64,000 bases of DNA, taken from positions 7,812,001-7,876,000 of the forward strand of contig NZ_BJOR01000001.1 in the NCBI RefSeq assembly GCF_006540305.1, written 5' to 3'. The stretch is from Streptomyces sp. 6-11-2 (GTDB lineage: Bacteria > Actinomycetota > Actinomycetes > Streptomycetales > Streptomycetaceae). Under the pieces are notes generated by a model. The model had not been told where the DNA came from, ran no database searches, and saw nothing but the letters and a program-made list of their open reading frames with translations. The stretch's first letter is position 1. Every line of letters starts with the position of its first letter. Of this stretch, positions 4,144 through 29,900 are shown piece by piece. A program made the position numbers and the translations under genes.

Positions 4144-4224
4144 TGCATCGCCGAAACGGCGTGCCTGCCACGCCTGTAGTCGTTCGGCCAATCCGTGAGG
4201 CCAATCGTTGTAGCGTCTTGGGTT

Positions 4225-5145
4225 GTGCAGCTCCGCTACAACTACCGGACCTACCCGGACGCCTCCCAGCGGCGTGCGCTGGCGCATGCGTTCGGGTGCG
4301 CCCGCGTGGTGTGGAACGACTGCCTGCGTGACCGGAAGGAAGCACACGCGGCAGGACTGCCGTATGTGAAATCAGCGGACCTGTCCCGGCTTCGCATCAC
4401 GCAGGCCAAGCGCACCGAGGACCGGGCCTGGTTCGCCGATGTGTCGGCGGTCGTCCTGCAGCAGTCTCTGCGGGACCTGGACACCGCCTACAAGCACTTC
4501 TTCGACTCGATCAAAGGAAAGCGGCGGGGCCGGGCAGTGGGGCCGCCCCGGTACAAGTCGAAGAAGGACACCCGGCAGTCGATCCGTGTCAATACCAATG
4601 CCTTCTGTCTCCAGGAGAACGGCACGGTGTACGTGGCCAAGGTCGGGCGCCTCAAGGTCAAGTGGTCCCGTCGGCTTCCGGCCGCGCCCACGTCCCTGAC
4701 CGTCACCAAGGACAGCTCCGGCCGGTACTTCCTCAGCTTCGTCGTGGACACCGAGCCGGACATCCTGCCCAGCCTGGAAACCGACGCCGGCATCGACCTG
4801 GGCCTGTCCGCCTTCGCCGTCCTGTCCGACGGCAGCAAGATCGACAGCCCCCGTTTCCTGCGCCGGGCGGAGAAGAAGCTCAGGCGCCTTCAGCGGGACC
4901 TGTCCCGCAAGGCCAAGGGATCGAAGAACCGGGCCGAGGCCCGTATCAAGGTCGCTCGCCAGCACGCCAAGGTGGCGGACCGGCGCCGGGACTGGCACCA
5001 CAAGACATCCACACAGATCATTCGCGACGACCAAGCGGTGTACGTGGAAGACCTCGCGGTGTCCGGCCTCGGGCATACCCAGCCTCACCGACGCGGTCCG
5101 CACAGCGTCGGTGAGGCTGGGGGCGAGGGTGGACAGCCTCGGTGA
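4225..5145 (+). pseudogene. IS605-type TnpB, C-terminally truncated RNA-guided nuclease relic
   Basis: The GTG at 4225 gives VQLRYNYRTYPDASQRRALA, the usual TnpB start. The N-terminal region and two RuvC residues are present: D in GIDLGLSAFAVLSDG and E in VYVEDLAVSGLG. Family similarity stops at about 5075. The treble-clef zinc finger and the last RuvC aspartate are missing, and the final codons are antisense to an IS5-like transposase. The right end of the element, where the guide RNA would end, is gone. It is therefore probably inactive. Confidence 0.8.
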
Positions 5146-6458: not shown

Positions 6459-7646
6459 TCATCCGATGAGACCGAGGGCGGTCAGAGGTCGGTGCCAGTC
6501 GCGGGCTGCATGGCGTAGGGCGGTGGCGATGTTGGTGCGGCCGTCTTGGCGGTGGACGCCGATGGCGAGGTTGCGCAGGCCGGCCATGACGCGTGGAAGG
6601 CTGCCGGTACGGATCTTGGAGTCGTCCTCGCGGAAGGTCCGGTCCCGGACGTGGTGCAGCAGGTTTTCGATCTTCCAGTGCCCTCTGATCCAGGCTGCGA
6701 GCCGGGCGCCGCTCGCGGTGCCGGGCGGCAGGCTGGTGATCAGGTAGACGCGCTCGATGGTGAGCTTGCCGCTGGTGAAGTCCTTCCTCCAGCGCACGAC
6801 TTGAAGGGCCTGGCGGGCATCGGGGTAATCAAGGTGGGCGAAGGCGGCGGACTTCAGCTGTCTGATCTCCAGGCGGTGATGCGCCGTGGTGCGCTCGTAG
6901 TGGTCCAGGGCGATGTCCTGCCAGGGCAGGCGGCGGACGCGGTCGAACAGGGTGGGGTGGTTGGCCTTGACCTGGGCGATGTGGTGAGCGCCGCGGGTGC
7001 GGAGGTAGGTGCCGTGGGCGTGCTGGGTGTGCAGGGCGTCGGCGGTGATCACCGTGTCGGTCAGGTTGATGGTGTCCAGCAGGGGCCGGAAGGCGGGGAT
7101 TTCATTGCTCTTGTCTGCGATCTGGCGCTGGGCCAGGACGCTGCCGGTGTGTTCCATCGCGGCGCGCACGGTGACGTGCGCGGTGGTGGCGGTGCGTGAG
7201 CCGCGCAGGGCCTTGCCGTCGACCGCGATCGCCCGTAGCCCGGGCCTGGCCGGGGTGGCGCGGGCGGTGAGGAAGGCGCCGATCGCCCGGTCCAGGGCGT
7301 CGCCGTCGAGCTGGACAAGAAGACGTCGCAGGGTGTGGGGGTGCGGGACGGACACGACGCCGGTCAGCGGGTCGACGGGGAAGCCGAGGGCTCGGCAGGC
7401 CCAGGCGGGGGCGTCGGATATCCACTCCGCGATCGCGGTGAGTGACCGGGCACCGGCCAGCACGCTCGCCGCGGTCGCGGCGATGAGCGCGGGCAGCGGA
7501 TAGCGGCGTCCGCGAACGCCTCGCGGGTCGGGCACCAGGTCCAGGAAGCCGGACAGGCCGACCGCGTCCGACAGCGGAGCCGGCTCGGAGGCCCGGGTCA
7601 GTTGATCCAGCGCGGCAGGGATGAGGGAAGATGCAGGAGCAGGCAC
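6459..7646 (-). CDS. ISAs1-family transposase
   Basis: A 395-residue intact DDE transposase. It carries the N-terminal DUF4372-like segment ([20 protein letters not shown]), the first catalytic D in [13 protein letters not shown], the second in [12 protein letters not shown], and the C-terminal [20 protein letters not shown] block with the E. Length and motifs are complete, making this the only clearly intact transposase in the window. I could not identify its inverted repeats with confidence. Confidence 0.9.
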
Positions 7647-8246: not shown

Positions 8247-9392
8247 CTACGGCTCGCGCGGTGCGGCAGCGCCAGCCGGGGGCGGCCTGTGCTGCATCGG
8301 CAGCTCCACATGGAGCTTGTACCCACCGTCGACTGTGCACTCGGCGGCGATCGTGCCGCCGAGGAGTTCAGCGCGTTGGCGCAGGCCGGCGAGGCCGTGG
8401 TGGGCGCTGGGCAGGGGTAGTGCCGGCCGGGTGGGGGCGGTGTTGATGACGGTGGTGTGGAGGGCGCCGTCCCTGTGGTGGATGTACACCCTCGCCGTGG
8501 CGCCGGGGGCGTGTTTGCGGACGTTGGTCAAGGCTTCCTGGACGGAACGGTAGACAGCGCGTTGAATGCTGGGCGGAAGGTCTTCGGGCAGGTCCGTCTC
8601 CAGTTCCGCTTCGATTCCACTGCCGCCGACCAGTTGCTGCAGGTCGGCGATGGAAGGCTGGGGAGTGAGCTCTGTCGGGCGGCTGCCGGATGCGCGCAGC
8701 ACGCTGACCATGTGCCGCAGTTCGTCCAGGGTCTGCACGCTGAGCCGTCGGATCGTGGCCGCGGCCTTTCTGGTCTCGGGATCCCGGCTGCCCACCTGGA
8801 GTGCTCCGGCCTGTACCGCGATGAGGCTGACCTGGTGGGAGACCACGTCGTGCATCTCCCGGGCGAGTTGTGCGCGTTCCTTCGCCAGGACGCTCTGGGC
8901 GGTCAGCAGCCGCTCGTGCTCGCGGGCCTCGGAGATTTCAGACAGTCGAAGGGACAGTTCGCGTCGGGCCTGCACGAGCTGTCCCAGGAAGACGGGGGCG
9001 ACTGAGACGGCCAGGGTGTAGGTGAGGTGGACCAGACTGGAGGTCTCAGCAAGGTCGGCCGCCTCCAGGGACGACCACGGCCAGGGCAGGAAGTCCGTGA
9101 TCGCGTAGGCCAGGGCGCAGCCGGCCAGCAGGATGCGGTGGCGGCTGAGAGAGGAGAGCGTGTACAGCGCGGCCAAGGTTGCGAATACCGCGTCGGAGAC
9201 CATGGCGGTGGGGAGTGTGAACACGAAGGTCGTCAGTGGCAGGCGGCGACGCAGCGCGAGGGCAAGCGCGGCGAGCAGCGCGCAGGCCATGGCCGCGTGC
9301 TCCTCAATCTCGATGTGGGCCCAGGCATCAGCCAGCGACGCCCCGATGAGGGCGGCGTCCAGCAACCGAGCCGGCAGGCGTCGGACGTTCAA
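8247..9392 (-). CDS. Two-component sensor histidine kinase (NarL/DesK type)
   Basis: 381 residues. The N-terminal 145 residues hold about four to five membrane helices. A HisKA_3 dimerisation domain follows with the phospho-acceptor H181 (REMHDVVSHQ), and then a HATPase_c domain (EALTNVRKHA, HHGLAGLRQRAELLGG). It autophosphorylates and passes the phosphate to the response regulator encoded immediately upstream. The start is TTG 9392-9390, overlapping the regulator's TGA, so the pair is translationally coupled. The signal is unknown. Confidence 0.9.
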   Translation of the reverse strand: MNVRRLPARLLDAALIGASLADAWAHIEIEEHAAMACALLAALALALRRRLPLTTFVFTLPTAMVSDAVFATLAALYTLSSLSRHRILLAGCALAYAITDFLPWPWSSLEAADLAETSSLVHLTYTLAVSVAPVFLGQLVQARRELSLRLSEISEAREHERLLTAQSVLAKERAQLAREMHDVVSHQVSLIAVQAGALQVGSRDPETRKAAATIRRLSVQTLDELRHMVSVLRASGSRPTELTPQPSIADLQQLVGGSGIEAELETDLPEDLPPSIQRAVYRSVQEALTNVRKHAPGATARVYIHHRDGALHTTVINTAPTRPALPLPSAHHGLAGLRQRAELLGGTIAAECTVDGGYKLHVELPMQHRPPPAGAAAPREP

Positions 9393-10057
9393 AGGGTGTC
9401 CCCATCCCGTGGTGGCGGCAGGAGGCCCGCGCGTTCGGCGATCAAGGCCGCCTCGACGCGGCTGCTGACCCGCAGTTTGCTGAGAACGGCGCTGACATGG
9501 CCTTTGACGGTGCCGGTGCTCAGGTGCATCCGTTCGCCGATGTCGGTGTTGGCGAGCCCCGCTGCTATCAGTATGAGGACGGCACGCTCGCGTTCAGAGA
9601 GCCGGGCAGCGAGTCGGACAGCGGAGGGTTCGCGCGCACCCTTGTCGAGGTAGCCGTCCACCACTGTGCGGGTGACCTTGGACGACAGTACGGTCCCACC
9701 CTCGGCCAGGGTTCGTACCAGGTAGGGGAGATGCTCGGGGTCGGTGTCCTTGAGTAGAAATCCGGCGGCGCCCGAGCGCAGGGCGGTCGCCACGTACTCG
9801 TCGGTGTCGAACGTGGTGAGCATGGCCACCACTGGAGGATGGGGGATACGACGAATGTTGGCCAGAATGGTGAGCCCGTCCACGTCCGGCATCCGGATGT
9901 CCAGCAGGACCACGTCAGGGTGCAGCTCGCCCACCGTCCGGACGGCCTGGCTGCCAGGTACCGCGGCGATGACCTCAATGTCCTCAACAGCGTTGAGAAT
10001 ATGCGTGAAGCCCAAGCGGATCAGGGCTTCGTCGTCGACCACCAGTACCCGGATCAC
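9389..10057 (-). CDS. NarL/LuxR-type response regulator
   Basis: 222 residues. The receiver domain carries the acidic pocket DDE (8-10), phospho-acceptor D53 (LLDIRMPD) and K in LLKDTD. A LuxR-type HTH follows at about 155-215 (LSERERAVLILIAAGLANTD; GTVKGHVSAVLSKL). It partners with the downstream sensor kinase. The divergent gene is a DUF418 membrane protein, and the gap between them carries spaced direct repeats that are a plausible binding site. Confidence 0.9.
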   Translation of the reverse strand: MIRVLVVDDEALIRLGFTHILNAVEDIEVIAAVPGSQAVRTVGELHPDVVLLDIRMPDVDGLTILANIRRIPHPPVVAMLTTFDTDEYVATALRSGAAGFLLKDTDPEHLPYLVRTLAEGGTVLSSKVTRTVVDGYLDKGAREPSAVRLAARLSERERAVLILIAAGLANTDIGERMHLSTGTVKGHVSAVLSKLRVSSRVEAALIAERAGLLPPPRDGDTL

Positions 10058-10252: not shown

Positions 10253-11515
10253 ATGACGCAGAACGCATCGTTGACCCTGTCGGCACAGGTATCACGTGAG
10301 CTTGGGACGGATCGCTCGTCCACCCCGGTCAGCGCACCGTCGACGGGCCGGCTCATTGGTATCGACCTGGCCCGCGGGTTTGCCGTCTTCGGCATGTACT
10401 CCGCCCATGTCGGACCCGACGTGACGGTGGGCGGACCGATGGGGATCCTCCTGGAGTTGGCGCGGGGCCGCTCCTCCGCCCTCTTCGCCCTGCTCGCCGG
10501 CTTCTCGCTGGTCATCATCACCGGCCGCCCGCATCCGAGGACAGGGCGCCTCGGCCGGCAGGCGGTCGTCAGGATCGTGATCCGCGCCGTCATCCTCCTG
10601 GTGCTCGGCTACGCCTTGACCGCACTGGACACTCAGGTCGATGTGATCCTCAGCTTCTACGGGCTGCTCTTCCTGACCGCGCTCCCGCTGTACAGGTTGC
10701 GGGCAAGGACGCTCGCACTCGTCGCCGGCGCGGGCGCACTGATCTTGCCCCAAGTCCTGTACGCGGTAAGGAAAACGATCGAGGAGGGGAGTTGGGCGGA
10801 TGCCATCACAGCCGGCGACCCGCTGGCCAGGATCAACAACACGGACGGCATCATCGAACTTTTGTTCACCGGAGAGTATCCGGTTCTCACCTGGATTCCG
10901 TTCCTGATCGCGGGCATGGCGGTGGCCCGGATCGATCTCTCTTGCTCCCGTATCCGCTCCCGGCTTGCCCTCACCGGCGGGGCACTCGCTCTCCTCGGCT
11001 ACGGAGGCTCCTGGCTGGCCCTGCGCCTGGTCCCCCACGCTCTCTCCGCCGTCGCGGCCGCCACGGACGGCGGTTCGGCGTCGTCCGCGTGGTGGTCCGA
11101 CAGCGTCGGCGAGCCACAGAACCGCACCCCGCTCGCGTGGTTGCTGGTGGCCGCACCGCACAGCCAGACGACCTTCTCCATCCTCGGCAACACGGGCATC
11201 GCCCTCGTGGTGGTGGCCACGTGTCTGACGGTCGCCGCCCGCATGCCGCGCCTCACGCGTCTGGCCACACCCATTGCGGCGGTCGGTATGACAGCGCTGA
11301 CGGTCTACGTTCTCCACATCGTCGCTCTTTGGTTCTTCACCGACGTTTGGCACGTGGCCAGGGTCGAGGACGAGACCATGGCTGCCTTGCCCGTGCTGCT
11401 CGGCTTCATCGCGGGTGCCACGCTCCTGGCGACGGTCTGGACCCGGCTGTTCCGGCGCGGCCCCCTGGAGTACCTGCTCCACATCGCGACCCGGCCCGCC
11501 CTGCTCATCAAGTGA
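10253..11515 (+). CDS. DUF418-type multi-pass membrane protein
   Basis: 420 residues with about ten hydrophobic segments. The N-terminus (RLIGIDLARGFAVFGMYSAH) matches the DUF1624/heparan-glucosaminide acetyltransferase-like start of DUF418 proteins. The C-terminal block has GMTALTVYVLHIVALWFF and FRRGPLEYLLHIAT. The exact role is not established; relatives are annotated as putative acyltransferases or transporters. It faces a two-component system across repeats and may be its target. Confidence 0.85.
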   Translation: MTQNASLTLSAQVSRELGTDRSSTPVSAPSTGRLIGIDLARGFAVFGMYSAHVGPDVTVGGPMGILLELARGRSSALFALLAGFSLVIITGRPHPRTGRLGRQAVVRIVIRAVILLVLGYALTALDTQVDVILSFYGLLFLTALPLYRLRARTLALVAGAGALILPQVLYAVRKTIEEGSWADAITAGDPLARINNTDGIIELLFTGEYPVLTWIPFLIAGMAVARIDLSCSRIRSRLALTGGALALLGYGGSWLALRLVPHALSAVAAATDGGSASSAWWSDSVGEPQNRTPLAWLLVAAPHSQTTFSILGNTGIALVVVATCLTVAARMPRLTRLATPIAAVGMTALTVYVLHIVALWFFTDVWHVARVEDETMAALPVLLGFIAGATLLATVWTRLFRRGPLEYLLHIATRPALLIK

Positions 11516-13655: not shown

Positions 13656-14092
13656 GCGTGAGCGTCGTCCGTCGCACGGGAACGGGGTGGCCGACCCAGG
13701 CGCGGGCGCTGCGACCCATGGTTGAACCAACGTCGTCAGCCGCCCCGCCAATGGTCCTTTTGAAGCGTCGCTGTCCATCGGCCTCGAGCCGCGGCGGGGC
13801 CACTCGGCGACCCAATTGAAGCGCTCGCGGGCGCACCACTGCTCCGCCCCTGCCGCGAGGCGGAGCCGGACGGATTGCCCGGTCCGGCGGCCGAGGTGCG
13901 GACCTGGCGATGCGCCGACGTGGCCCGGCGGCCCGGGGCCGGCACTCGGCCCACCGGCCTGGACCAAGACCCATGTGGCGACGGAAAGTCGAGTGCGGCC
14001 TTGGCGTCGGGGTGATCACCAGCCAGTCCAGGTCGTACGAGCGTCTACACACCCGCTGCTCGTCAAGCCGAGCGGACGGAGCGGGCAGCGCC
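13656..14092. other. 437-bp gap without a supportable gene
   Basis: Very GC-rich sequence between the end of the membrane protein and the stop of the terpene synthase. Several open frames exist on both strands, but none has a Shine-Dalgarno site, a recognised motif or convincing codon bias. No clear terminator hairpin was seen. Confidence 0.4.
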
Positions 14093-15058
14093 TCATTTGG
14101 GGCCTTGGTATCGGGCATGGCTGGTGTGCCAGATGAAGGAGCGGGCGATGCCCTCCAGGGCGCGGGCGTGGGCTGTGAGCGTGCTCGGGGGATCGCAGGC
14201 GAGGCTCGTGATCCATCGCCGGGCGACGGCTGCTTCGTTTTCGCACATACCACTGGCGCGTGCAAACGCCTCCTCGAGGTTTCCGCCGTGCCGCGCCCGC
14301 AGCAGCGTGGGCAGGCTCAATGGCTGCACCGGCCCTCGCGCCACCTCACGTTCGTAGGAGGCCAAGTCGTTGACCCAGCCCGCGAGATTGGCCACAGCGG
14401 TCTCCAGGTGCCGCACCGGCGCCAGCGCCCGCTGCGCGTCCGCCAGTTCGTAGTCCAGGACAATCTCCGCCGCGGCAATGATCGTCCTGACGAACACGGT
14501 GTGCGGACGCATCTCCAGATAGGTCGCGAGCGCAACCCTCTCCGGCTCCGCCACATGGTGTGCCTCCCAGACCAGAGCCATGATGGTGTCGCGCAGGCTT
14601 GCGGCAAGTCGGAGGTACGCGGCTGGGCCGGTCCGGGCCCGGAAACGGGCAAGCAGGTCGTACAGGGCGGCGGGGAACGGGCCCATGAGGGGAGGCGGGC
14701 TGCCGCTGGCCAGGACGAGCATCAGCTCAGCGGAGCGGTCGACAAGACCAACCGGGTCGCCGGCGGCGTTGCCCTCGCCGTGCACGTCGTCGAACGCGGT
14801 GAGCCACAGCAGGAGTTCCGCGAACAGAACCAGATCGTCCGCGTCGGCGGTCGGGAAGGTACGCGATGCTCCGTGACTCGTGATGTTCACCAGAACACTC
14901 CTGGCCCTGGCGGAGGGAAGCAGCGGGTACTCCTCCAGCCAGCCGAGGAGTTGGCGTTCCGTGTGATTCCCGTGCGGACTCGCGGGGAACGGACCGGGGA
15001 ACGTGGCGGTGAAGTCCGGTTGAGGCAGCATCGTCGCCGCATCGCCGGTGCCTGTCAT
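14093..15058 (-). CDS. Class I terpene synthase
   Basis: 321 residues with a terpene-cyclase alpha fold. The acidic motif is DDVHGE (D90, D91, E95) and the NSE triad is N230, S234, E238 in NDLASYERE; together they bind Mg2+ and the diphosphate. It would ionise the product of the class II cyclase encoded upstream and finish the diterpene skeleton. The ATG at 15058 overlaps the P450 stop (ATGA), which fixes the start; the longer frame upstream is antisense noise. It is the last gene of the operon. Confidence 0.88.
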   Translation of the reverse strand: MTGTGDAATMLPQPDFTATFPGPFPASPHGNHTERQLLGWLEEYPLLPSARARSVLVNITSHGASRTFPTADADDLVLFAELLLWLTAFDDVHGEGNAAGDPVGLVDRSAELMLVLASGSPPPLMGPFPAALYDLLARFRARTGPAAYLRLAASLRDTIMALVWEAHHVAEPERVALATYLEMRPHTVFVRTIIAAAEIVLDYELADAQRALAPVRHLETAVANLAGWVNDLASYEREVARGPVQPLSLPTLLRARHGGNLEEAFARASGMCENEAAVARRWITSLACDPPSTLTAHARALEGIARSFIWHTSHARYQGPK

Positions 15059-16419
15059 ACGGCCTCCCGGTGGCGGCGCACGGGCGTCCGCGCCTCGGCG
15101 GTCATGCGCAACGTGGACGGATGCAAGGTGATCGCTCCGACCGGCCGAACGGCAGGTCCTGGGACGGGCCGCAGCCGCCAGCGGGACGCGATCAGGGCCG
15201 TGATCAGGGTCGCTTCGGCCAGCGCGAACTCGTTGCCCATGCATTGCCGCTTTCCGGCCCCGAACGGAATGAACGCCCCCTTCGGGGGCTGCGGACGCTC
15301 TGGCAGCCAACGGTCGGGATCAAAGCGGAGCGGGTCAGGGTACAGGCCGGGGTCACGGTGCAGCGTGTAGGGGCTCCACACGATGTCCTCCCCGGCCGGC
15401 AGATCCACGGCTCCGAGCCGCACGGGCTCAATGGTCTGACGGGTCACCAGCCATGCCGGGCTGTACAGGCGCAGACTCTCGTTGACCAGTCTGCGGGTGA
15501 ACGTGAGCCGCGTCAGAGTCTTCGTGGTCAGGGGCTCGTCCGTGAGGACCGTGTCGGCCTCGTTGTGCAACTGCCGCTCCAGGTCCGGGTTACGGCCCAG
15601 CTCGTGGAACAGCCAGGTCAAGGTGACCGCAGTGGTTTCCGAACCCGCCGCGAGCAGGCCCGTGACCTCGGACAGGATGTCCTCGTCGGCCAGCGGCGTA
15701 CCGTCCGGCTCCTGGGCGGACAGAAGGAGCGACACGATGTCGTCGTGGGCTTCCGGCCGCGCCAGGTGGTCGGCGATGACCTCACCCACAGCAGCACGCA
15801 TCACATGGCCGGCACGCCGCGCCCGCCGGTTCCCCCGGGTCGGCAGCCGTTCGAGGAGGGGAAGTGGCAGCAGGGCACGGCGGAGAGCCGCGGCGAAGAG
15901 GGTGTCGACGCTCTTGAGGATCGCGTGCCCGGTGTCGCGGTCGGGAATGGTGGAGAACAAGGCCCCCATGACGACGTTCTGCGTCATCAACTGCATCTCG
16001 GTCTTCAGATCCAGTGGCCCCATGCTCTGCCATGCCGCGATCATCGGATCGACTGTGGTGTGCATGGTCCGGACGTACTGGTCGACCTGTTGGTGGTGGA
16101 ACGCGGGTTGCATCAGGCGGCGGCGCCTCAGGTGCCGGCTGCCCTCCGCGACCGGCAGGGCATCCTTGCCGAAGAGTTTCAGCTTCTCGAACAGGAGCCC
16201 TTTGCTGAAGTGTCCCGATTTGCTGGTGAGCATCTCCTGCAAGAGCTCGGGAGAGTTGATGACGGTCACCGTCTTCGGGCCGATCGAGATACGCACGATC
16301 GGCCCGTGCTCGCGCAGGCGCTGCAGAAAGGCCAGACGGTCCCTCGCCAGAGGCACCGCGTGTCCGATGAGCGGCACACGCCCTGGAGCGTATGGCGGAA
16401 CGTGCAGGTCGGCGTTCAC
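15055..16419 (-). CDS. Cytochrome P450 of the diterpenoid cluster
   Basis: 454 residues. I-helix AGSETT at 258-263, K-helix ESLR (E314, R317), and heme loop FGAGKRQCMG with Cys393 are all intact. The GTG at 16419 is preceded by GGAGG (9-nt spacer) and opens NADLHVPPYAPGRVP; the longer upstream frame lacks P450 features. It lies between the two diterpene synthases, so it probably hydroxylates or epoxidises the hydrocarbon product. No ferredoxin gene is in the operon, so electrons must come from elsewhere. Confidence 0.9.
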   Translation of the reverse strand: MNADLHVPPYAPGRVPLIGHAVPLARDRLAFLQRLREHGPIVRISIGPKTVTVINSPELLQEMLTSKSGHFSKGLLFEKLKLFGKDALPVAEGSRHLRRRRLMQPAFHHQQVDQYVRTMHTTVDPMIAAWQSMGPLDLKTEMQLMTQNVVMGALFSTIPDRDTGHAILKSVDTLFAAALRRALLPLPLLERLPTRGNRRARRAGHVMRAAVGEVIADHLARPEAHDDIVSLLLSAQEPDGTPLADEDILSEVTGLLAAGSETTAVTLTWLFHELGRNPDLERQLHNEADTVLTDEPLTTKTLTRLTFTRRLVNESLRLYSPAWLVTRQTIEPVRLGAVDLPAGEDIVWSPYTLHRDPGLYPDPLRFDPDRWLPERPQPPKGAFIPFGAGKRQCMGNEFALAEATLITALIASRWRLRPVPGPAVRPVGAITLHPSTLRMTAEARTPVRRHREAV

Positions 16420-16466
16420 GGTTGGTGCCTCCGTCTGTGATCCGGGCTGAAGGGGGGCGGGACGGT

Positions 16467-18065
16467 TCAGGGCCGGCGTGTCTGCAGCAGCTCGAGCGCG
16501 GCGGTCACCTCGGCCTGTGCCATGGCCTGCGGGGCGTAAAGGGTCTTGTCGTGCCAGAGGGCAGGGTGGTGGTGGCCGGAGGAGTGGACGGCTTCGCGCA
16601 GGATGTCCTCGGCGAGTTTCAGGGCCTGGGCGGCCTCTGGCCTGCCCGCGTGATCCGGGGAGTTGAGGAGGATGTTCACGGCATAGGCGGTCTCCTCGGC
16701 GGTGCCACCCCACACCCCCCAGGATCCGTCGTCGCCCTGAGCGGCCAGTACCCAGTCGGCGGCTGAGCGGACGGCGTCGCGGGTGGTCGGGCCCGTGTGC
16801 CCGGAGAGAGCAGTGACGCACCGTTCGGTGGCGTAGTAGGGGGACGCGTGCCACTTGTCGCACCAGGCGCCGTCGGACTGTTGCTGGGCGAGGAGCCAGT
16901 CGCGGGTCAGGTCCATACGGGCCTGGAGAGCGTCACCTGTCGTGGGCCGGTGGCTCAGCCAGGCGGTGAGCGCCTGGAGGGCGTGGGCGTTGGCTGTGCT
17001 GGAGCCGGTGTCCTCGCCGACATAGCAGTCGTAGTGGTCGCCGGCCTCGAAAGCGGACAGCGGGGAGGGGTCGCGGGGTGAGCCGGCGAGGGCGGACACC
17101 AGCACCGCCATCGCGGTGTCGTCGGTGTCGGGCAGCAGGCCCGGGGCGCCGCGTACGCCGGCGGCGTCGTAGATCTCCGCAGCCCAGGCGCGGACGGGTG
17201 GCACACAGGTGGCGGGCAGGCCGGGACGGGCCAGGGCGGCGGCGACCCAGAGCCGCTCGAAGACGGAGATCGGCGTGGCCTCCGGGAAAAGACCGTCATA
17301 ACGCTCCGCCACGGCGGTCAGCGCGGTGACCGCCTGTTCCCGGCCCGTGCCGGGACCGGTGGCCAGCCAGGCGGCGGTGGCGGCGGGGGAACTGCCCAGC
17401 AGCCCGCCTGGGACGCCAGGCACCATCTGCGGCAGGCGGCGCGCGACCCCTTCGAAGGTGTGGTGCAGCTTGAGTGGCACACCGCCGGCCACCTGGCACC
17501 GCTCGGCCACGCGGTCGGGCAGCGCCGCCTGAAATCCGCGCGGCTGAGCCAGGCGCTGCCCGCGGGCCCACGGGCCGAGCCGGGACAGGGCCGCGACCTC
17601 CGGCTGGTCCAGGTGGTCGTTGATCAGGATGACCAGGTCGGGGGCGAGGATCTCGATGGCCGCCGTGTCCGGCCACCCACCGGTCCTGGACAGGTCCCGC
17701 AGCGCTGCGAGCCCGTTGTCCACAGCCGCGGCGAGCTGCTCGCGCGAGACGCCTGCGGCCGTGTCCTGGCGCAGCGTGGACAGGAGGGCTTCCGTGGCGC
17801 TGAGCGTCGGCAGCAGCCGGTAAGGCGCGGGTCCCTCTCCCCAACTGCCGGCGGCGGACTGCCTCTCCAGCAGCCACGTCAGACGCCGTTCGTGTCCCTC
17901 CAGCCATGGTGCCCAGGAGGTCACCCGGGCCGTCTCATACACGGAGGGACGCACGTTGCCCCAGGGATCGTTGTCGACCGACGTCACCAAAATCTGGGCC
18001 CGCTCCACGTAGCTGTTCGTGTGCCGTGCCCGTATCGGGGTCGCCTGGTGGGACATGGATCTCAT
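16467..18065 (-). CDS. Class II diterpene cyclase (DxDD type)
   Basis: 532 residues with a beta-gamma alpha-barrel organisation and QW-like repeats (e.g. QQSDGAWCDKW, AAQGDDGSWGVWGG). The proton-donating motif DTDD is at 313-316. Such enzymes protonate GGPP and close the decalin ring to a labda- or clerodane-type diphosphate without losing the pyrophosphate. The ATG at 18065 is set by the ATGA overlap with the GGPP synthase stop and by GGAAAGG just upstream. Stereochemistry and hydration state cannot be told from sequence alone. Confidence 0.9.
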   Translation of the reverse strand: MRSMSHQATPIRARHTNSYVERAQILVTSVDNDPWGNVRPSVYETARVTSWAPWLEGHERRLTWLLERQSAAGSWGEGPAPYRLLPTLSATEALLSTLRQDTAAGVSREQLAAAVDNGLAALRDLSRTGGWPDTAAIEILAPDLVILINDHLDQPEVAALSRLGPWARGQRLAQPRGFQAALPDRVAERCQVAGGVPLKLHHTFEGVARRLPQMVPGVPGGLLGSSPAATAAWLATGPGTGREQAVTALTAVAERYDGLFPEATPISVFERLWVAAALARPGLPATCVPPVRAWAAEIYDAAGVRGAPGLLPDTDDTAMAVLVSALAGSPRDPSPLSAFEAGDHYDCYVGEDTGSSTANAHALQALTAWLSHRPTTGDALQARMDLTRDWLLAQQQSDGAWCDKWHASPYYATERCVTALSGHTGPTTRDAVRSAADWVLAAQGDDGSWGVWGGTAEETAYAVNILLNSPDHAGRPEAAQALKLAEDILREAVHSSGHHHPALWHDKTLYAPQAMAQAEVTAALELLQTRRP

Positions 18066-19147
18066 GACTGCCTTTCCGTGGCTATCCATACGATCTGTTT
18101 CAGCGTCTCGGCGACGTCCTGGGGCAGGTCTGCTTCTTCCAGCGTGGCGAGAGCGGTGTCGCGCCTGGCGGTGATCATCTTTTCGACCCGCTGCCGGGCG
18201 CCGGTGGTCTCCATGAGGGTGCGGACCCGGTCGATGTCCTCGCTCCCCAGTTCCGGGCTGCCGACCAGGGTGCTGAGCAGCTTCAGGTCGGCCCCGGAGG
18301 CGTCCTGGACCGTGAGAGCCAGGAGCGCGGTGGCTTTGCCCTCACGGATGTCGTCTCCGACAGGCTTGCCGGTCTGTACCGGATCACCGAAGACGTTGAG
18401 CAGGTCGTCGCGCAGCTGAAACGCTTCTCCCAGCGGGATGGCGAAATCGGTGCAGGTCTGCAGCAGCTGCGGATCGCCGCCGGCCAGGGAAACGCCGAGG
18501 TGCAGGGGCCGTTCCACGGTGTATTTCCCCGTCTTGTACCGGGCGACCCGCAGCGCGGCCTCGACGTCTCCGGACATCCGGTCGGTCGACAGCAGATCCA
18601 GGTACTGCCCGTAGACCAGCTCGGCGCGCATGCTGTCCACCAGCGGCAGGACCCGGGCCCGTGTCCCGGCTCCGAGCCCTGCGCCCGCCAGCATTTCGTC
18701 CGACCACACGAGCAAGAGGTCACCGAGGAGGACGGCGGCACCCCGGCCGTGCGCCTCCGCCTTGCTGAGCCGCCCACCGCCGCTCATGTACTCGGCGGCC
18801 AGCGCGCGGTGGGCCGAGGGCCGTCCGCGGCGAGTATCGCTGTCGTCCATGACGTCGTCGTGGATCAGGGCGAACGTCTGGAACAGCTCCAGGGCGGCGG
18901 CGACGCGAAGGACCGCGTGGAAGTCTTCCGATGCGCCTGCGGCCTGCCATCCCGCCACGCACAGCAAGGGGCGCAGTCGCTTGCCGTTGGAGAAGAGAAG
19001 TCGGCGGACGGTGGTGAACAGCGGTGCCATTTCCGGGCCGAGTGCTGCCCGCTCCTGCACGACGACGAAGTCCTCGAGTACCGCGTCTACATCGTCACGA
19101 ACGGATATAAGGGTCGGAATATCGGTGTCCCACGCGGTACCAGCCAT
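18062..19147 (-). CDS. Geranylgeranyl diphosphate synthase (polyprenyl synthetase)
   Basis: 361 residues from ATG 19147. The first aspartate-rich motif is DDVMDDSD (97-104) and the second is RDDLLNVFGD (246-255). Lys/Arg residues of GKRLRP near 55-60 bind the diphosphate. It condenses IPP with an allylic diphosphate to GGPP, the precursor for the class II cyclase encoded next. AAGGAAGG lies 11 nt before ATG 19147; a TTG 39 nt upstream is possible but weaker. Chain length (C20) is inferred mainly from context. Confidence 0.88.
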   Translation of the reverse strand: MAGTAWDTDIPTLISVRDDVDAVLEDFVVVQERAALGPEMAPLFTTVRRLLFSNGKRLRPLLCVAGWQAAGASEDFHAVLRVAAALELFQTFALIHDDVMDDSDTRRGRPSAHRALAAEYMSGGGRLSKAEAHGRGAAVLLGDLLLVWSDEMLAGAGLGAGTRARVLPLVDSMRAELVYGQYLDLLSTDRMSGDVEAALRVARYKTGKYTVERPLHLGVSLAGGDPQLLQTCTDFAIPLGEAFQLRDDLLNVFGDPVQTGKPVGDDIREGKATALLALTVQDASGADLKLLSTLVGSPELGSEDIDRVRTLMETTGARQRVEKMITARRDTALATLEEADLPQDVAETLKQIVWIATERQS

Positions 19148-19220
19148 CGATGCACGTACCTTCCTTGAAGCGAGAATCCCAGGCAAAATCGCCCTTTTCC
19201 CGTGGCCGGGCAGAACACGG

Positions 19221-19243
19221 CCCCCGGGTTTGCACCCCGGGGG
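19221..19243 (-). terminator. Hairpin between conservon and diterpenoid operon
   Basis: CCCCCGGG (19221-19228) and CCCGGGGG (19236-19243) form a perfect 8-bp stem with a 7-nt loop. It lies just downstream of the conservon P450 and upstream of the GGPP synthase on the same strand. There is no U-tract, which is common for Streptomyces terminators. It suggests two separate transcription units. Confidence 0.5.
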
Positions 19244-19276
19244 CGGTCGGTCAGCTGTCGGTGTTGGTGATGTGGA

Positions 19277-20515
19277 TCAAGCGGACACGGGGACGCTACC
19301 CCGCGTTGATCTCCGTGAATCCGGTGTCTGCGGAGTGAAACGGCAGGGCAGTGAGGTGAGAACGCGATAGATGGGGCCTGGCTGGTACGTCAGAGTGGCA
19401 GCCGGAACGGTGAGTTCGATGTCCGGCAGCCTGCCCATCAGCCGCTCGATGGCCGCGACCGACACCACGAACACGATGTCCTCGGCGGGGCAGGAGTGCG
19501 GACCGGCCGCGAAGGCGAGGTGTGCCTTGTAGTCGGAGCGCTGCTCGTCGCTCACCTGACCGGCGTGGGGGCAGGTGTTGACCGCCGCGTAGGAGACCAT
19601 GATGGGCTCTCCGGCCTCGATGGCGCGCCCGTGGAACGTGACGGAGCGCCGCGCGCGGTGGAGGCTGTACATGGCCAGCGGCGGATCCGCCCAGAGCACC
19701 TCGTCGATGGCGTGCCTGATGGGCAGACTCCCGGTGGTGAGAGTGCCCCGGTACCGTTGGTCGGAGAGCATCTGCGCGAGGGTGTTGGCGATCAGGCCCG
19801 CCAGCGTGCCGTAGGCCGCGCCCTGAGTGATCAGTACCTGGTTGATCACCTCCTCCGGGCTGAGCCCGTGCGGGTGGTCGATGAACCAGGAGGTGAGGTC
19901 GCGGCCGCGCCGCGCGCTCTTCATGGCGTAAAGGCTGCCCAGATACGCGGTGAGAGCCTGCTCGCCCGCCTCCTTGGCCTGCGGGACCGTACTCATCATC
20001 GCCTCGATCGCCGACATGAGCTGGTCCGCGCCCTCGTCCGGCATGCCGAACAAGGTGTTCAGGACCATGAGCGGCAGCCTACGGGCGTACTGGGCGACCA
20101 GGTCGGCCCGTCCCGTATGGGCGAACTCGTCCAGAAGCGTGTCCGCGTGACGCCGCGTCACATCCCGTAGGTACTGGGGGTCGAGGAGCGCGAAACTGTC
20201 GGTGATGACCTTCCGCAGATGCGCGTGTTCCTCGCCGTCGGCGAAGAACAGGCTGGGCCGCCACTGCAAGGGCTCCTTGACCGGACTGTCTGCCGGCACC
20301 GTCGTGTCCCAGCCCCGGGTGTCCTTGGTCCAGGTACCGGGGTCCTGCAACAGGTCGAGAGCGGCCCGGTAGTCGGTGACCACCCATACGACGACGCCGG
20401 GATCGATCTCGGCGCGGCCCACCGGGCCCTGTGCTCGCAGCAGTTGGTAGCTGCGCTGAGGGTCGACGGCATGCTCCGGTCCGTACAGCGGTACAGCGTT
20501 GGGGGCATTGGTCAC
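19277..20515 (-). CDS. cvnE: Conservon cytochrome P450 (CvnE-like, CYP157 type)
   Basis: 412 residues. The heme loop is FAAGPHSCPA with Cys342. The K-helix reads DEVLW (E272 to W275), so the normally invariant arginine of ExxR is replaced by Trp; the I-helix (GAAYGTLAG) is also unusual. CYP157 enzymes of conservons are known to lack ExxR, which supports the assignment. GTG 20515 overlaps the TGA of the GTPase gene. It is the last gene of the conservon; its substrate is unknown. Confidence 0.88.
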   Translation of the reverse strand: MTNAPNAVPLYGPEHAVDPQRSYQLLRAQGPVGRAEIDPGVVVWVVTDYRAALDLLQDPGTWTKDTRGWDTTVPADSPVKEPLQWRPSLFFADGEEHAHLRKVITDSFALLDPQYLRDVTRRHADTLLDEFAHTGRADLVAQYARRLPLMVLNTLFGMPDEGADQLMSAIEAMMSTVPQAKEAGEQALTAYLGSLYAMKSARRGRDLTSWFIDHPHGLSPEEVINQVLITQGAAYGTLAGLIANTLAQMLSDQRYRGTLTTGSLPIRHAIDEVLWADPPLAMYSLHRARRSVTFHGRAIEAGEPIMVSYAAVNTCPHAGQVSDEQRSDYKAHLAFAAGPHSCPAEDIVFVVSVAAIERLMGRLPDIELTVPAATLTYQPGPIYRVLTSLPCRFTPQTPDSRRSTRGSVPVSA

Positions 20516-21108
20516 AGATCGCCTCCGGCACGGGTGACGAGGTGGGCGGCCAGCGCTCGCAGCGCGTTGAGGCTGGAGTCCCAGTCGCGCGCGTCGCAGA
20601 TGACCATGGGGGTGTGATCCTCGACGTCGAGCTTGACGCGGAGGGTTTCCTCGTCATAGGTGGGGGATTCGGGGAATTGGTTCACGGCTACGGCATAGTC
20701 CAGGCCGCTCTCCTCTATGAGGTCCATGACCTCGAAGGAGTCGGCCAGTCTCCGGGTGTCCACGATGACGAGTGCGCCCAGGGCCCCACGGGCGTAGTCG
20801 CTCCACAGGGGCTTGAACCGCCGCTGCCCGGGCGTGCCGAACAGGTACAGGACGATTCGCCCCTGGGCGATGGTGAGACGGCCGAAGTCGATGGCCACCG
20901 TGGTGGTCTTCTTGTCCGCGACCGCAAGCTCGTCGACATGGGCCGCCGCGTCGGTCATGACCTCCTCGGTGTGGAGGCTCGGAATCTCCGACAGGGTGCG
21001 GATCAGCGTGGTCTTACCGATACCGAACGGCCCGGCCACCAGGATCTTCACCCGTTCGTGGTTCGAGTCCGGCAGGTAGACCGGCGCACTAGAGGGCGAG
21101 GAGCCCAT
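20512..21108 (-). CDS. cvnD: Conservon ATP/GTP-binding protein (CvnD-like)
   Basis: 198 residues. P-loop GPFGIGKTT, switch-like YLFGTPGQRRF and base-recognition motif NQFPES mark a Ras/MglA-like small GTPase of the conservon type. It acts with the roadblock and DUF742 proteins in a membrane-associated signalling complex. ATG 21108 is chosen because GGAGGAGG lies just upstream; it overlaps the end of the DUF742 gene by 20 nt, which indicates coupling. Confidence 0.9.
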   Translation of the reverse strand: MGSSPSSAPVYLPDSNHERVKILVAGPFGIGKTTLIRTLSEIPSLHTEEVMTDAAAHVDELAVADKKTTTVAIDFGRLTIAQGRIVLYLFGTPGQRRFKPLWSDYARGALGALVIVDTRRLADSFEVMDLIEESGLDYAVAVNQFPESPTYDEETLRVKLDVEDHTPMVICDARDWDSSLNALRALAAHLVTRAGGDL

Positions 21109-21460
21109 GCATAACCTCCTCCAGGAGGGCCTTGCTGGGCCGTCCGGCGTGAGCGGTGGGAGCAAGGGCGTCCGGAAGCGGCGCAGCGGCACGCAGGTGA
21201 CCGTCGGACACCAGTTGCGCGGCGAGCATCTTCACCACGCCGATCGGAAGACGCAGATAGCCCGCGATCTCCATCACGGTCAGCCCGCCGTCATTGACCA
21301 GGTCGAGAAGTCGCTGATGGGCGGGCGTGTGATGGGGCAGCGCAGGTCGGCCGGTGGCGGTCAAGGCCGTCAGGTCTTCGAGCGTGCTGTGCTCGGGAGC
21401 GCTGAGGCCTCCCGTGGCCAGGTAACTGGGGACCAGTCGTCGCGCCGGGCCCGGGCTCAT
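21089..21460 (-). CDS. cvnC: Conservon DUF742 protein (CvnC-like)
   Basis: 123 residues of the DUF742 family: VPSYLATGG near the start, then LLDLVNDGGLTVMEIAGYLR and LPIGVVKMLAAQLVSDG, a winged-helix-like core. The start ATGA overlaps the roadblock stop and the end overlaps cvnD. In characterised conservons this protein joins the sensor-kinase-like protein and the GTPase. Confidence 0.9.
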   Translation of the reverse strand: MSPGPARRLVPSYLATGGLSAPEHSTLEDLTALTATGRPALPHHTPAHQRLLDLVNDGGLTVMEIAGYLRLPIGVVKMLAAQLVSDGHLRAAAPLPDALAPTAHAGRPSKALLEEVMHGLLAL

Positions 21461-21891
21461 GATGACGGGCCATGGGAGCGCGTGGGTACGGACATCAGCG
21501 CCTCGCCGAGGTTCTTCGCCTGCCGCGCGAGAGTGTGCGCGACGATGTTCATCGGCACATCGGTGCCGAAGGAAGCGGCGATGAACGCGTTGGCTCCGCC
21601 GGCCGGCATGACCATAAGCGTTCCAGAGGCGTCGAGTTGGACCGTAATGGTGGAGATCGGAGTCTCCTCGGGTGCCTGGAGCGAGACGACGGCCGCCGCG
21701 CGCGCGGCGCCGTGCAGGGCGGACACCATGGCCGCCATGCCCTCGGAGTCATCGCGGCCGAGGCTGCCCGAGGCTCCGACGACGATGCCGTCGGCGGACA
21801 GGATCAGAGCATGACGGACGCCGATCTCGATGATCGGGCCCAGGACCCAGGAGGGGTCGGGTATCTGCTCACTGAGAGTTGACTGGGTCAA
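21457..21891 (-). CDS. cvnB: Conservon roadblock/LC7 protein (CvnB-like)
   Basis: 144 residues with the roadblock/LC7 fold: VRHALILSADGIVVGASGSL, then a beta-rich section TLMVMPAGGANAFIAASFG. These proteins bind and regulate small GTPases. TTG 21891 overlaps the TGA of the kinase gene, and its own stop overlaps the DUF742 start, so the whole conservon is translationally linked. Confidence 0.9.
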   Translation of the reverse strand: MTQSTLSEQIPDPSWVLGPIIEIGVRHALILSADGIVVGASGSLGRDDSEGMAAMVSALHGAARAAAVVSLQAPEETPISTITVQLDASGTLMVMPAGGANAFIAASFGTDVPMNIVAHTLARQAKNLGEALMSVPTRSHGPSS

Positions 21892-23240
21892 GACTTGTCC
21901 TTGTTCTCAGAGTCGGTTGCGTCACGTCCGGCGGCAACGGCCTGCTCGAAGTCACCCCATGCGGCGCCAGCCGCATCCGGGTCCACCGGTCGAGCCGTAC
22001 GAGTCAGAGAGCGGCCACGGGAGGATCCGCTCCGGCGGCGGCGCTGGGGCAGCCCGCTGGCGTCACGCGGAGACGGCGCGCTGACGTCACGCAACCCCTC
22101 CCCGCGCTCCGCGGCGTCAGGAGGTACGGGCGTGCGCGGCGCCGGTGCCGGCAGGGCCGCCATCGCCGACGGCGGCTCCGCCTGCTCATCGATGGTGGTC
22201 AGCAGATGCTTCGGAACCGCCAGCACGGCACGAACCCCGCCATAGGGGGAGACCTGATCGACGGACACGTGGAAGCCGTGGTCGGCGACCAGCTGCCCGA
22301 TAGCCGCGAAACCCAGAGCCGGAGGGTCGCCCAGCTCGGTGAGCAGCAGCTTGCCGGCATTCTCGCCGGTCACCAGCCGGGTGCCGCGCGCGACGGACTC
22401 GCGGGTCATCCCCTTGCCCGCGTCATCGATCTGGATGCACACGTTGCCGTTGTCCGTCTGCAGAAGGGTGACCTCCACCGCCAAGTCGCCCCGTGAGGAC
22501 TCCAGCGCGTTCGCCATCAGCTCGGCGCAGGCCACCGCCACCGGTTCTGCGGCCCGGCCGACAATGCCCACCCCGCCGACCAGCAGTTTGGTGTGGACCT
22601 GGATCCGCTCGAATCCGTTCAGACGCGACGTGGCTCCGGCGACGACGTCGGGGAGGTGGGTGTCCGGCCGGACCAGGCCGGGCCACGAACCACTCACGAT
22701 GGCCGCTTTCTGCACCAGCCGGAGGACCTGCTCGTTGAGCTGGTCGATACGAAAATACTCCCTGACGACCTCGGGGTCGCGGCAGTCGCGCTGCAGCTCG
22801 TCGATGAGCGTCTGCAGCCGGAAGCTCTGGGCCTGGATGGCCGTGCAGGCGCCGCGCAGTGCCGCCCGGGCGGCGGAGTCGATACGGCCGCGCTCACCGA
22901 TCAGTGTCTCCACGAACAGGTCGTGCGCCGCCTGGGCCTGCACCGCGAAGTCGCTGTTGTCGTTCAACAGGCCGTCGGGCACGGGATGATGGTCGCTTAT
23001 CAAGTGCAGAGCGGCGGCGGGCAGCCGGTTGTTCACCAAGTGGCGCAACTCTTCGAACTGTGCCCTCTCGCGGGCCCGGAGGGTTGCCAACGCCTCATTC
23101 TGCTCGGCGATTTGCCGGGTCAGCGCCGCACAGCGACGCGACAGGCCCGCGCGAGATCTGGCGAGAGCCGCTGCGGCGACAGCGCCCGCTGCGGTTGTCG
23201 CACCCAGCACCGCAAGGGCAGCTTCGGGATTTGATGTCAC
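21888..23240 (-). CDS. cvnA: Conservon sensor histidine kinase-like protein (CvnA-like)
   Basis: 450 residues. One N-terminal hydrophobic helix (AVLGATTAAGAVAAAALA) is followed by a coiled coil and a HATPase_c domain (N-box AELMANALESS, DDAGKGMTRES, then ALGFAAIGQLVADHGF). The nitrate-sensor periplasmic domain of larger CvnA proteins is absent. The C-terminal 80 residues are Pro/Arg-rich and probably disordered. It heads the five-gene conservon whose end faces the diterpenoid operon. Confidence 0.88.
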   Translation of the reverse strand: MTSNPEAALAVLGATTAAGAVAAAALARSRAGLSRRCAALTRQIAEQNEALATLRARERAQFEELRHLVNNRLPAAALHLISDHHPVPDGLLNDNSDFAVQAQAAHDLFVETLIGERGRIDSAARAALRGACTAIQAQSFRLQTLIDELQRDCRDPEVVREYFRIDQLNEQVLRLVQKAAIVSGSWPGLVRPDTHLPDVVAGATSRLNGFERIQVHTKLLVGGVGIVGRAAEPVAVACAELMANALESSRGDLAVEVTLLQTDNGNVCIQIDDAGKGMTRESVARGTRLVTGENAGKLLLTELGDPPALGFAAIGQLVADHGFHVSVDQVSPYGGVRAVLAVPKHLLTTIDEQAEPPSAMAALPAPAPRTPVPPDAAERGEGLRDVSAPSPRDASGLPQRRRRSGSSRGRSLTRTARPVDPDAAGAAWGDFEQAVAAGRDATDSENKDKS

Positions 23241-23539
23241 GGATAGGGGGTCCTCGGAGGGTCAGAGCCAGGCCCCGGCCGGCATCGGGCGACGCAGCGA
23301 AAGCTCACGCCCGACAGGCAGACCTGGCGATGTGGGTAAGGGAGAGGCGCGCACGTCTGCCGGCCACCGCGTGGGACGGCCTGCTTCCCGGAACTCCGCG
23401 CTCCCAGGAGCCCGTCCCGCGGCAGGTTCGCACCGAGAAACGGAACACGGACACGCCAGGCACACTGGGAACCAAGGGAAGCAGGGCATTTCGCTCCGGT
23501 CGACAACGAGCAGACGATCCGGCATGTTACTCATAAGAT

Positions 23540-23730
23540 GATCAGCGTGTGGCATCTTCACGTCGCGTCCACAATGCGGCAACCAGGCCGTCAAGGGCGG
23601 GTCGGTGCGGCCGGGCTCGGCCGGGAAGGACCGGGCTGGGTGAACGGCCCTGGCGAGAGTGCTGCCGTTGACTCCGAAGAGCCGGGCGAGCAGGTCCCGG
23701 GTGCCGACTTTGCACATGAGCACAGTGAGC
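23540..23730 (-). pseudogene. Helix-turn-helix scrap of a transposase
   Basis: A minus-strand frame reads RDLLARLFGVNGSTLARAVH and then PPLTAWL, like the HTH segment of an ISAzo13- or IS5-type transposase. Only about 40 residues are recognisable. The rest of 23241-23540, upstream of the conservon, holds no supportable gene and should contain its promoter. Confidence 0.35.
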
Positions 23731-25663: not shown

Positions 25664-26398
25664 ATGCGAATCGGAGAGATCGCCGCGCTCGTCGGGCTCA
25701 CCACCCGGGCGATCCGGCACTACCACCATGTCGGGCTGCTTCCGGAACCGGAGCGGCGCCCCAATGGCTACCGGACCTACAGCGTCCGCGACGCCGTCCT
25801 GCTTGCCAGGGTGCGCAGGCTCACCGAACTCGGCCTCAGCCTCGATGAAGTGCGCGACGCCCTCGCCGACGATGCCGGGCGCGAACTGGCCGAGGTGTTG
25901 GAGGAACTCGACGCCGACCTGGCCCGCCAGGAAGCCGACATCCGGGAGCGCCGCTGCCGGCTCAGCGCCCTGCTCGCCGAGCCGCCCGGCGTGACCGGGC
26001 CCGTCTCACCCGCCCTCGCCGCACTACTGGCACAGGCCCCCAGGACAGACTCGCCGAGCGCGGCCAAGGACCGCGAGTACCTCACGCTGATGGACGCCAC
26101 CAGCACCGGTGGCCAAGAGATTTTCGCGCTACTCGGAACTCTGATCGCCGATCCCGCGGTCGTCGAACTGTATGAGCGCCTCGACGCGCTCGCCGAAGCC
26201 CCCGCCGACGATCCGCGGATCGCACCCCTGGCAGCTGACTTGATGGCAGCCGTCCCCGAGGAGCTGTTCGCCGCAATCCCCGAGGACGGGGTGGTCGTGA
26301 CCGGGTTCAAGGAGGCGCTGCTCGCCGAGTACGCCCCCGCGCAGGCGGAAGTCGTGGGCCGGCTCATGGACGCGTTCATGGAGAGGGGCCGGGGATGA
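25664..26398 (+). CDS. MerR-family transcriptional regulator
   Basis: 244 residues. The MerR winged helix covers 1-70 (MRIGEIAALVGLTTRAIRHY; ERRPNGYRTYSVRDAVLLAR), then a coiled-coil dimerisation helix of about 40 residues, and an effector domain to the end. No metal-binding Cys pattern is visible, so a drug-type ligand is more likely than a metal. There is no Shine-Dalgarno site. The downstream membrane-protein gene overlaps by ATGA, so the two form an operon that the MerR protein probably controls. Confidence 0.85.
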   Translation: MRIGEIAALVGLTTRAIRHYHHVGLLPEPERRPNGYRTYSVRDAVLLARVRRLTELGLSLDEVRDALADDAGRELAEVLEELDADLARQEADIRERRCRLSALLAEPPGVTGPVSPALAALLAQAPRTDSPSAAKDREYLTLMDATSTGGQEIFALLGTLIADPAVVELYERLDALAEAPADDPRIAPLAADLMAAVPEELFAAIPEDGVVVTGFKEALLAEYAPAQAEVVGRLMDAFMERGRG

Positions 26399-29547: not shown

Positions 29548-29900
29548 TTAGCGGGCGTACGGGACGGTGCATGACCCTGGGGCTTTTGAGCACTCGCGCA
29601 GTTTGTCGTTGAAGACCTCGGCGTCGTCGATGACGACGCCGTCGAGCAGTCGGTAGAACTCTTCGGCGCCGATGCGGTGGGAGCGTTCGGTCTTGCCGTT
29701 CAGCCGCGGGGTGCGGGGCTTGATGTACGTGTGGGCGATGCCCTTGTCGAGCACGTGCCATTGAAAGGCGGACTGGAACTCGGCGCCGTTGTCGATCTGG
29801 ATGACCTCGACCTGGAACGGCAGGCGCTGCAGCACGCAGTCGAGGAACGGGGATGGACTTCGGCATGGGGATCTCCGTAGTGATCGGAGACCCAGGTGTC
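29548..29900 (-). pseudogene. IS481-type integrase-core fragment
   Basis: The frame 29548-29835 encodes LQRLPFQVEVIQIDNGAEFQ, KPRTPRLNGKTERSHRIGAE and EFYRLLDGVVIDDAEVFNDK. These carry the second D and the E of the rve DDE core. The C-terminal end is missing, and a frameshift near 29840 breaks it from upstream sequence. It is fused to an IS5-like terminus. Confidence 0.75.

Follow-up and report, generated by a model that had tools for sequence, protein, structure and literature searches.

The stretch of DNA analysed here (the window) comprises 64,000 nucleotides of Streptomyces sp. 6-11-2 (contig NZ_BJOR01000001.1, positions 7,812,001 to 7,876,000). On its minus strand, positions 14093-19147 contain four intact genes encoding a geranylgeranyl diphosphate (GGPP) synthase, a class II diterpene cyclase with a DTDD motif, a cytochrome P450 and a class I terpene synthase. 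Upstream of them, on the same strand, positions 19277-23240 contain the conservon genes cvnA-D and a gene for a degenerate P450 (cvnE), which were not mentioned in an earlier interpretation made from the letters of this DNA alone (hereafter the sequence-only reading). Taking all its parts together, we consider it likely that the four genes are closely orthologous to the labdane clusters cld (cyslabdan) and lrd, that their pathway leads to an epoxidised labdane and that the conservon has been inherited with them and probably regulates them. The four genes are the following:

18062..19147, minus strand: GGPP synthase, in the position of CldA/LrdA (PF00348, 185.4 bits; motifs DDVMDD and RDDLLN)
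16467..18065 or 16467..18089, minus strand: class II diterpene cyclase (SQHop_cyclase_C, 40.7 bits; DTDD at residues 321-324 of the longer form)
15055..16419, minus strand: tailoring P450 with full motifs (PF00067, 257.5 bits; GSETT, ESLR and FGAGKRQCMG, which includes the heme cysteine)
14093..15058, minus strand: class I synthase, predicted (E)-biformene synthase and orthologue of CldD/LrdC (PF19086, 108.4 bits)

Gene content, order and motifs are direct observations, and the minus-strand operon with two ATGA junctions described by the sequence-only reading was confirmed. The overlaps are located at 18062-18065 (GGPP synthase and class II genes) and at 15055-15058 (P450 and class I genes), and the class II and P450 genes are separated by 47 bases. 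For the class II gene, a start at 18065 yields the ATGA overlap and an in-frame ATG 24 bases earlier (18089) is the alternative. The class I protein displays the motifs DDVHGE (from residue 90) and NDLASYERE (from residue 230). The products belong to the Pfam families of the polyprenyl synthetases, the squalene/hopene-type cyclases, the P450s and the family 2 terpene synthases, and the top solved structure by sequence for the class II cyclase is PtmT2 (5bp8). Other assignments were rejected on their scores: squalene-hopene cyclase for the class II gene (TIGR01507, 38.8 bits for a cut-off of 431.1), albaflavenone monooxygenase (CYP170A1; NCBIfam NF051859, 362.5 bits for a cut-off of 700) and pentalenene oxygenase (below its cut-off) for the P450, and, for the class I gene, the sesquiterpene synthase equivalogs, none of which reached its cut-off.

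The conservon and the non-coding features that adjoin it are the following:

23241..23573, minus strand: conserved stretch 5' of cvnA, probable promoter region, within the block aligned to three relatives
21888..23240, minus strand: cvnA, histidine-kinase-like ATPase (PF02518, 27.1 bits for a cut-off of 26.4)
21457..21891, minus strand: cvnB, roadblock/LC7 protein (PF03259, 36.7 bits)
21089..21460, minus strand: cvnC, DUF742 protein (PF05331, 72.5 bits)
20512..21192, minus strand: cvnD, small GTPase (PF03029, 78.2 bits; the true start is probably within the frame)
19277..20515, minus strand: cvnE, CYP157-like heme protein (EVLW replaces EXXR; heme cysteine present)
19220..19244, minus strand: GC-rich hairpin with a 9-bp stem between cvnE and the GGPP synthase gene, candidate terminator or attenuator

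The limits of the conserved unit were deduced from DNA similarity (E <= 1e-10) to three relatives. The block aligns with the drawn genome G181 at 95.6% (14052-23638), with locus L132 of strain NRRL WC-3626 at 85.3% (14097-23574) and with a plasmid of S. anthocyanicus at 81.0% (14107-23573). The sole other DNA match to these relatives is a segment of 245 bases (6519-6762) in a transposase gene, shared with G181. The eight flanking proteins of the window were found in none of 30 cluster loci (a few kb per side), and some close relatives, for instance L012, L137 and L138, share flanks with each other. Because the similarity ends just outside both ends of the block and the flanks differ, the unit is a block of nine genes, about 9.5 kb long, present in varied surroundings on chromosomes and linear plasmids. 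The four-gene description given by the sequence-only reading is therefore incomplete, since the DNA common to the three relatives also takes in the five conservon genes.

The same association was found in other genomes. A contig scan matched at least 593 stretches, 87 of which encode relatives, and 80 loci were kept. A class II relative at least 55% identical is present in 15 of these loci, and in 14 of the 15 it is accompanied by the other three genes and, upstream and codirectional, by cvnA-E, with protein identities down to 49%. The four-gene set is thus not an assembly due to chance, because identical genes in identical order recur in these 14 loci. The exception is L028 (Streptomyces odonnellii), a contig of 8.5 kb where the class II match begins at residue 179 and is followed by a P450; no match to the GGPP synthase or the conservon was found in the 6.2 kb upstream, so that this locus, which may be decayed or misassembled, was counted as a miss. 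The arrangement was not found in the other 65 loci (class II identity of 46% or less), among which L017, L021, L025 and L030 contain other conservon-type genes in a different order or orientation and without a match to CvnE. The class II relative of S. clavuligerus (about 46-49% identical) has no conservon match in 19.5 kb.

Two other samples, which are independent neither of the named loci nor of each other, agree with this result. In an even draw of 392 Streptomyces genomes, a class II gene was found at E <= 1e-100 in 14, including the genome of the window, and cvnA-E lies upstream and codirectional in all 13 others (G029, G170 and G410 correspond to the named loci L057, L003 and L013). In this set, the CvnE match of G263 covers residues 155-339 only, the contig of G151 stops before the P450 gene and G104 is without a P450. 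Concerning plasmids, the best 60 of 859 and the best 45 of 135 records were compared: all 24 records with a class II relative at 52% identity or more also encode a CvnE at 62% or more, on the same strand, with starts 2574 to 2922 bases apart (these 24, three of which were opened, include many near copies). The next plasmid CvnE among the matches listed is 48.8% identical, and in three lower records that were opened the annotation shows no terpene gene next to the conservon. Linear Streptomyces megaplasmids, between 0.3 and 1.3 Mb in size, carry many copies of the module (H81-H104).

When 29 CvnE rows were placed in a maximum-likelihood tree, the 19 linked ones grouped together (support 100/100), and the paralogues from the window's own genome and the unlinked plasmid copies are placed outside this group (L090 is a fragment of the L057 locus, L096 and L102 represent the same gene, and several of the branches outside are long). 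Within the same genome, the closest CvnE paralogue has 45% identity, compared with 60-89% for the linked named loci and 96% for G181. The distances of CvnA and CvnE track those of the class II, class I and GGPP synthase proteins (r of 0.89 to 0.92; none of 2000 permutations as high), a congruence that vertical descent alone would also give. The labdane set has probably been inherited jointly with cvnABCDE. That the conservon is a mere neighbour, with no functional tie to the labdane genes, appears improbable: adjacency is no proof of function, the two operons are separated by a hairpin, and the truncated class II gene of L028 is preceded by no GGPP synthase gene and no conservon in the 6.2 kb upstream, but the linkage holds at identities down to 49% and in 13 of 13 other drawn genomes, the linked CvnE proteins form a single clade and the flanks differ among most lineages.

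The labdane enzymes themselves are close to known ones. Over 321 residues, the class I protein has 90.0% identity to P0242 of S. cyslabdanicus, named (12E)-labda-8(17),12,14-triene synthase. Over 540 residues, the class II protein matches P0001, which we infer to be CldB of S. cyslabdanicus, at 91.3%; the nearest drawn genome, G181, has 90% identity to P0001. These values and the intact motifs support the attribution to a labdane cluster of the cld kind proposed by the sequence-only reading. According to that reading, cld and rmn have this same gene order; of published gene orders, the present comparison covered the name lrdABDC only. The suggestion that the product could be new is not supported, given the same identities. 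About 90% identity to a characterised cluster had been proposed as the mark of a cluster that is not new, and two of the four proteins, class I and class II, lie at this level. The chemistry is therefore probably not new. The P450 shares 98.2% identity with an uncharacterised protein of Streptomyces sp. NPDC001312, P0121.

The cld cluster of S. cyslabdanicus K04-0144 (cyslabdan) has the same content of GGPP synthase, class II, P450 and class I genes in another species. The lrdABDC cluster of Streptomyces thermocarboxydus K155 ((E)-biformene) was compared by its class I enzyme alone: LrdC (PDB 6oh6) is 78.1% identical to the window protein over 319 residues and hence 22% divergent. LrdC converts copalyl diphosphate (CPP) to (E)-biformene and needs Phe189 and Tyr317 (PMC9814573). 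Both residues are present in the window protein and invariant in the 13 rows of alignment A2, and Tyr317 is conserved in all 18 loci of a wider set. The rmn (raimonol) and lab (labdanmycin) clusters, compared by description, have the labdane type in common with the window according to a review (PMC10301674).

The products of these clusters indicate where the pathway may lead. Cyslabdan and (7S,8S,12E)-8,17-epoxy-7-hydroxylabda-12,14-diene were obtained when cldA-D was expressed in S. avermitilis SUKA22, and lrdABDC yielded the same two compounds in S. cyslabdanicus deleted for cld (PMC10301674). In the window, the first enzyme would form GGPP, which the DTDD cyclase would protonate and bicyclise to normal-CPP. 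The class I enzyme would ionise normal-CPP and remove the C-12 proton to yield (E)-biformene, the P450 would convert (E)-biformene to a 7-hydroxylated, probably 8,17-epoxidised labdane, and mycothiol would open the epoxide to give a cyslabdan-like conjugate. All these catalytic steps are predicted from orthology, the P450 product being the least sure. Going by the title of a 2016 report by Ikeda, cyslabdan is reportedly formed through mycothiol-mediated detoxification and therefore with genes located elsewhere than in the cluster. The window's genome encodes the mycothiol markers MshA (669.1 bits, cut-off 462.5) and Mca (494.2 bits, cut-off 277.15). The lack of transferases and ligases, from which the sequence-only reading had derived a simple hydroxylated product, is no argument for one, because the mycothiol route uses genes elsewhere and the four-gene cld cluster yields cyslabdan besides the epoxy-hydroxylabdane.

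Several points weigh against this orthology and this end product. Most actinobacteria should encode MshA and Mca, so these markers discriminate little. The comparison with cld covers the class I and class II proteins, two of the four; P0001 carries no name of its own, and some class II relatives (e.g. P0012 at 76% identity) bear the automatic name labda-7,13-dienyl diphosphate synthase. Phe189 is replaced by Leu in two of the 18 loci (L005 and L006), whose class I enzymes possibly form a different product. The P450 is the least congruent gene, its distances correlating at r of 0.65-0.79 with those of the five other genes, compared with 0.89-0.94 among those five (18 loci). The G104 cluster (L135) has no P450 match, its class II and class I genes being about 150 bases apart with the conservon present; without a tailoring P450, its product may be unoxidised (E)-biformene. 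Finally, in three other hosts lrd led no further than (E)-biformene, and raimonol was the product of the cld-like rmn cluster (PMC10301674), so that the P450 reaction may have another outcome.

In the first alternative, the P450 would hydroxylate C-7 only and the end product would be raimonol-like instead of the epoxide that leads to cyslabdan. A product that is hydroxylated only is possible by analogy with rmn, and the discordant evolution of the P450 would fit it. We nevertheless regard this alternative as unlikely, since the other enzymes are nearest to cld and not to the class II protein P0041 of S. anulatus (61.3% identity), a putative RmnB. It is very improbable that the class II enzyme sets its double bond at C-7 (labda-7,13-dienyl diphosphate) and opens a labda-7,12,14-triene series, as the automatic names cited above and the formation of labda-7,12(E),14-triene by mixed pairs of CldB/CldD and SCLAV_p0490/0491 enzymes (PMC10301674) might suggest, because the closest relative, P0001, groups by inference with an enzyme named for the 8(17)-triene. 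Cyslabdan potentiates imipenem against methicillin-resistant Staphylococcus aureus, and the window cluster would be a further source of such enzymes, not of a new scaffold.

Concerning the conservon, CvnE is CYP157-like by its motifs, in that it has lost the EXXR arginine and kept the heme cysteine. The pattern without EXXR has been described for CYP157 P450s (PMC3599690), and genes for such P450s are part of conservons 9-12 in S. coelicolor (PMC8510531, PMC13343842). The window resembles cvn9-12 in the order cvnA-B-C-D-E and in a degenerate P450 with Trp at the place of the EXXR arginine; in contrast, its CvnE belongs to a clade of its own, whose examined copies are linked to labdane genes. 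Among 28 linked CvnE copies (a count that omits the fragment L090 and the loci L116, L132 and L133, which are the same records as L057, L003 and L013), Trp replaces the arginine in all 28, the heme cysteine is conserved in 27 (the exception being the incomplete G263) and the Glu-Thr pair of the I-helix in five. The conservon P450s unlinked to labdane genes (L087, L088, L097, L098 and L099) also have Trp, and therefore the loss of EXXR belongs to the CYP157 type and is not special to the labdane-linked clade. By a simple hydropathy plot, CvnA has a single N-terminal hydrophobic segment (residues 8-26), as in five of five other loci checked, and no extracytoplasmic sensory domain.

The review names cldA-D as the cluster responsible for cyslabdan (PMC10301674), and the conservon is therefore probably dispensable for catalysis. 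The same attribution speaks against CvnE as a further enzyme of the pathway, as does the absence of EXXR from all 28 linked copies, of which only five have the I-helix pair, and the similar state of the unlinked conservon P450s, which indicates a decay of the CYP157 type and not of a labdane enzyme. The heme cysteine kept in 27 of 28 copies would favour an enzyme, and so would the deletion of labE, which stopped labdanmycin formation at raimonol (PMC10301674). On balance, a catalytic role of CvnE has little probability.

Regulation of the four labdane genes by the conservon is the most likely role of the latter, as the conserved linkage suggests. A precedent for local control is Cvn8, which represses an adjacent lanthipeptide cluster (PMC8510531). 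Accessory proteins accompany CvnA proteins without a sensory domain, and CvnE and CvnF have been proposed as inputs to CvnA, conservon accessory proteins of neither type having been studied biochemically before (PMC13343842, mBio 2026). We hypothesise that CvnE senses the labdane of the pathway and is a candidate diterpenoid sensor. The nine genes would then constitute a self-regulating cassette, in which CvnE binds its own labdane or an intermediate and alters CvnA, and the GTPase switch CvnB-C-D sets the transcription of the four genes; this full scheme is a tentative one and rather improbable. If it is true, CvnE would be a P450 turned diterpenoid receptor, and the conservon would have a known small-molecule input. 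As this conservon lineage is tied to one diterpene pathway, it provides a possible ligand and an operon as target, so that the question of the accessory-protein input becomes directly testable. A link between conservons and labdane or other terpene genes is named in none of the texts that we searched, 'conservon' and 'roadblock' being absent from the main text of PMC9814783, and 'conservon' from PMC10301674; the supplementary neighbourhood figure of PMC9814783 may show these neighbours.

In the gap between cvnE and the GGPP synthase gene, uninterrupted stems of at least 9 bp (G-T pairs allowed) occur in 14 of 18 loci, a frequency given without a shuffled control for GC-rich DNA, which readily forms such stems. 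In L007-L010, L012, L014, L016, L057 and L085, the stem reaches 15-19 bp with the common core GGTGGTG and is a candidate terminator, attenuator or operator.

The genes outside the block were considered unrelated to the module, having no relative in the 30 loci, whose flanks are short: they comprise a two-component pair, a DUF418 protein (10253-11515), a MerR regulator (25664-26398) and four proteins of unknown kind. The two-component pair, located downstream (8247-10057) and not common to the relatives checked, is of the LuxR type and consists of a HisKA_3 kinase and a response regulator. On one side of the module there are two transposase genes (4195-5145 and 6459-7646; IS605 OrfB type and DDE_Tnp_1), and two further frames (29548-29835 and 35321-36126), judged by eye only, are transposase-like.

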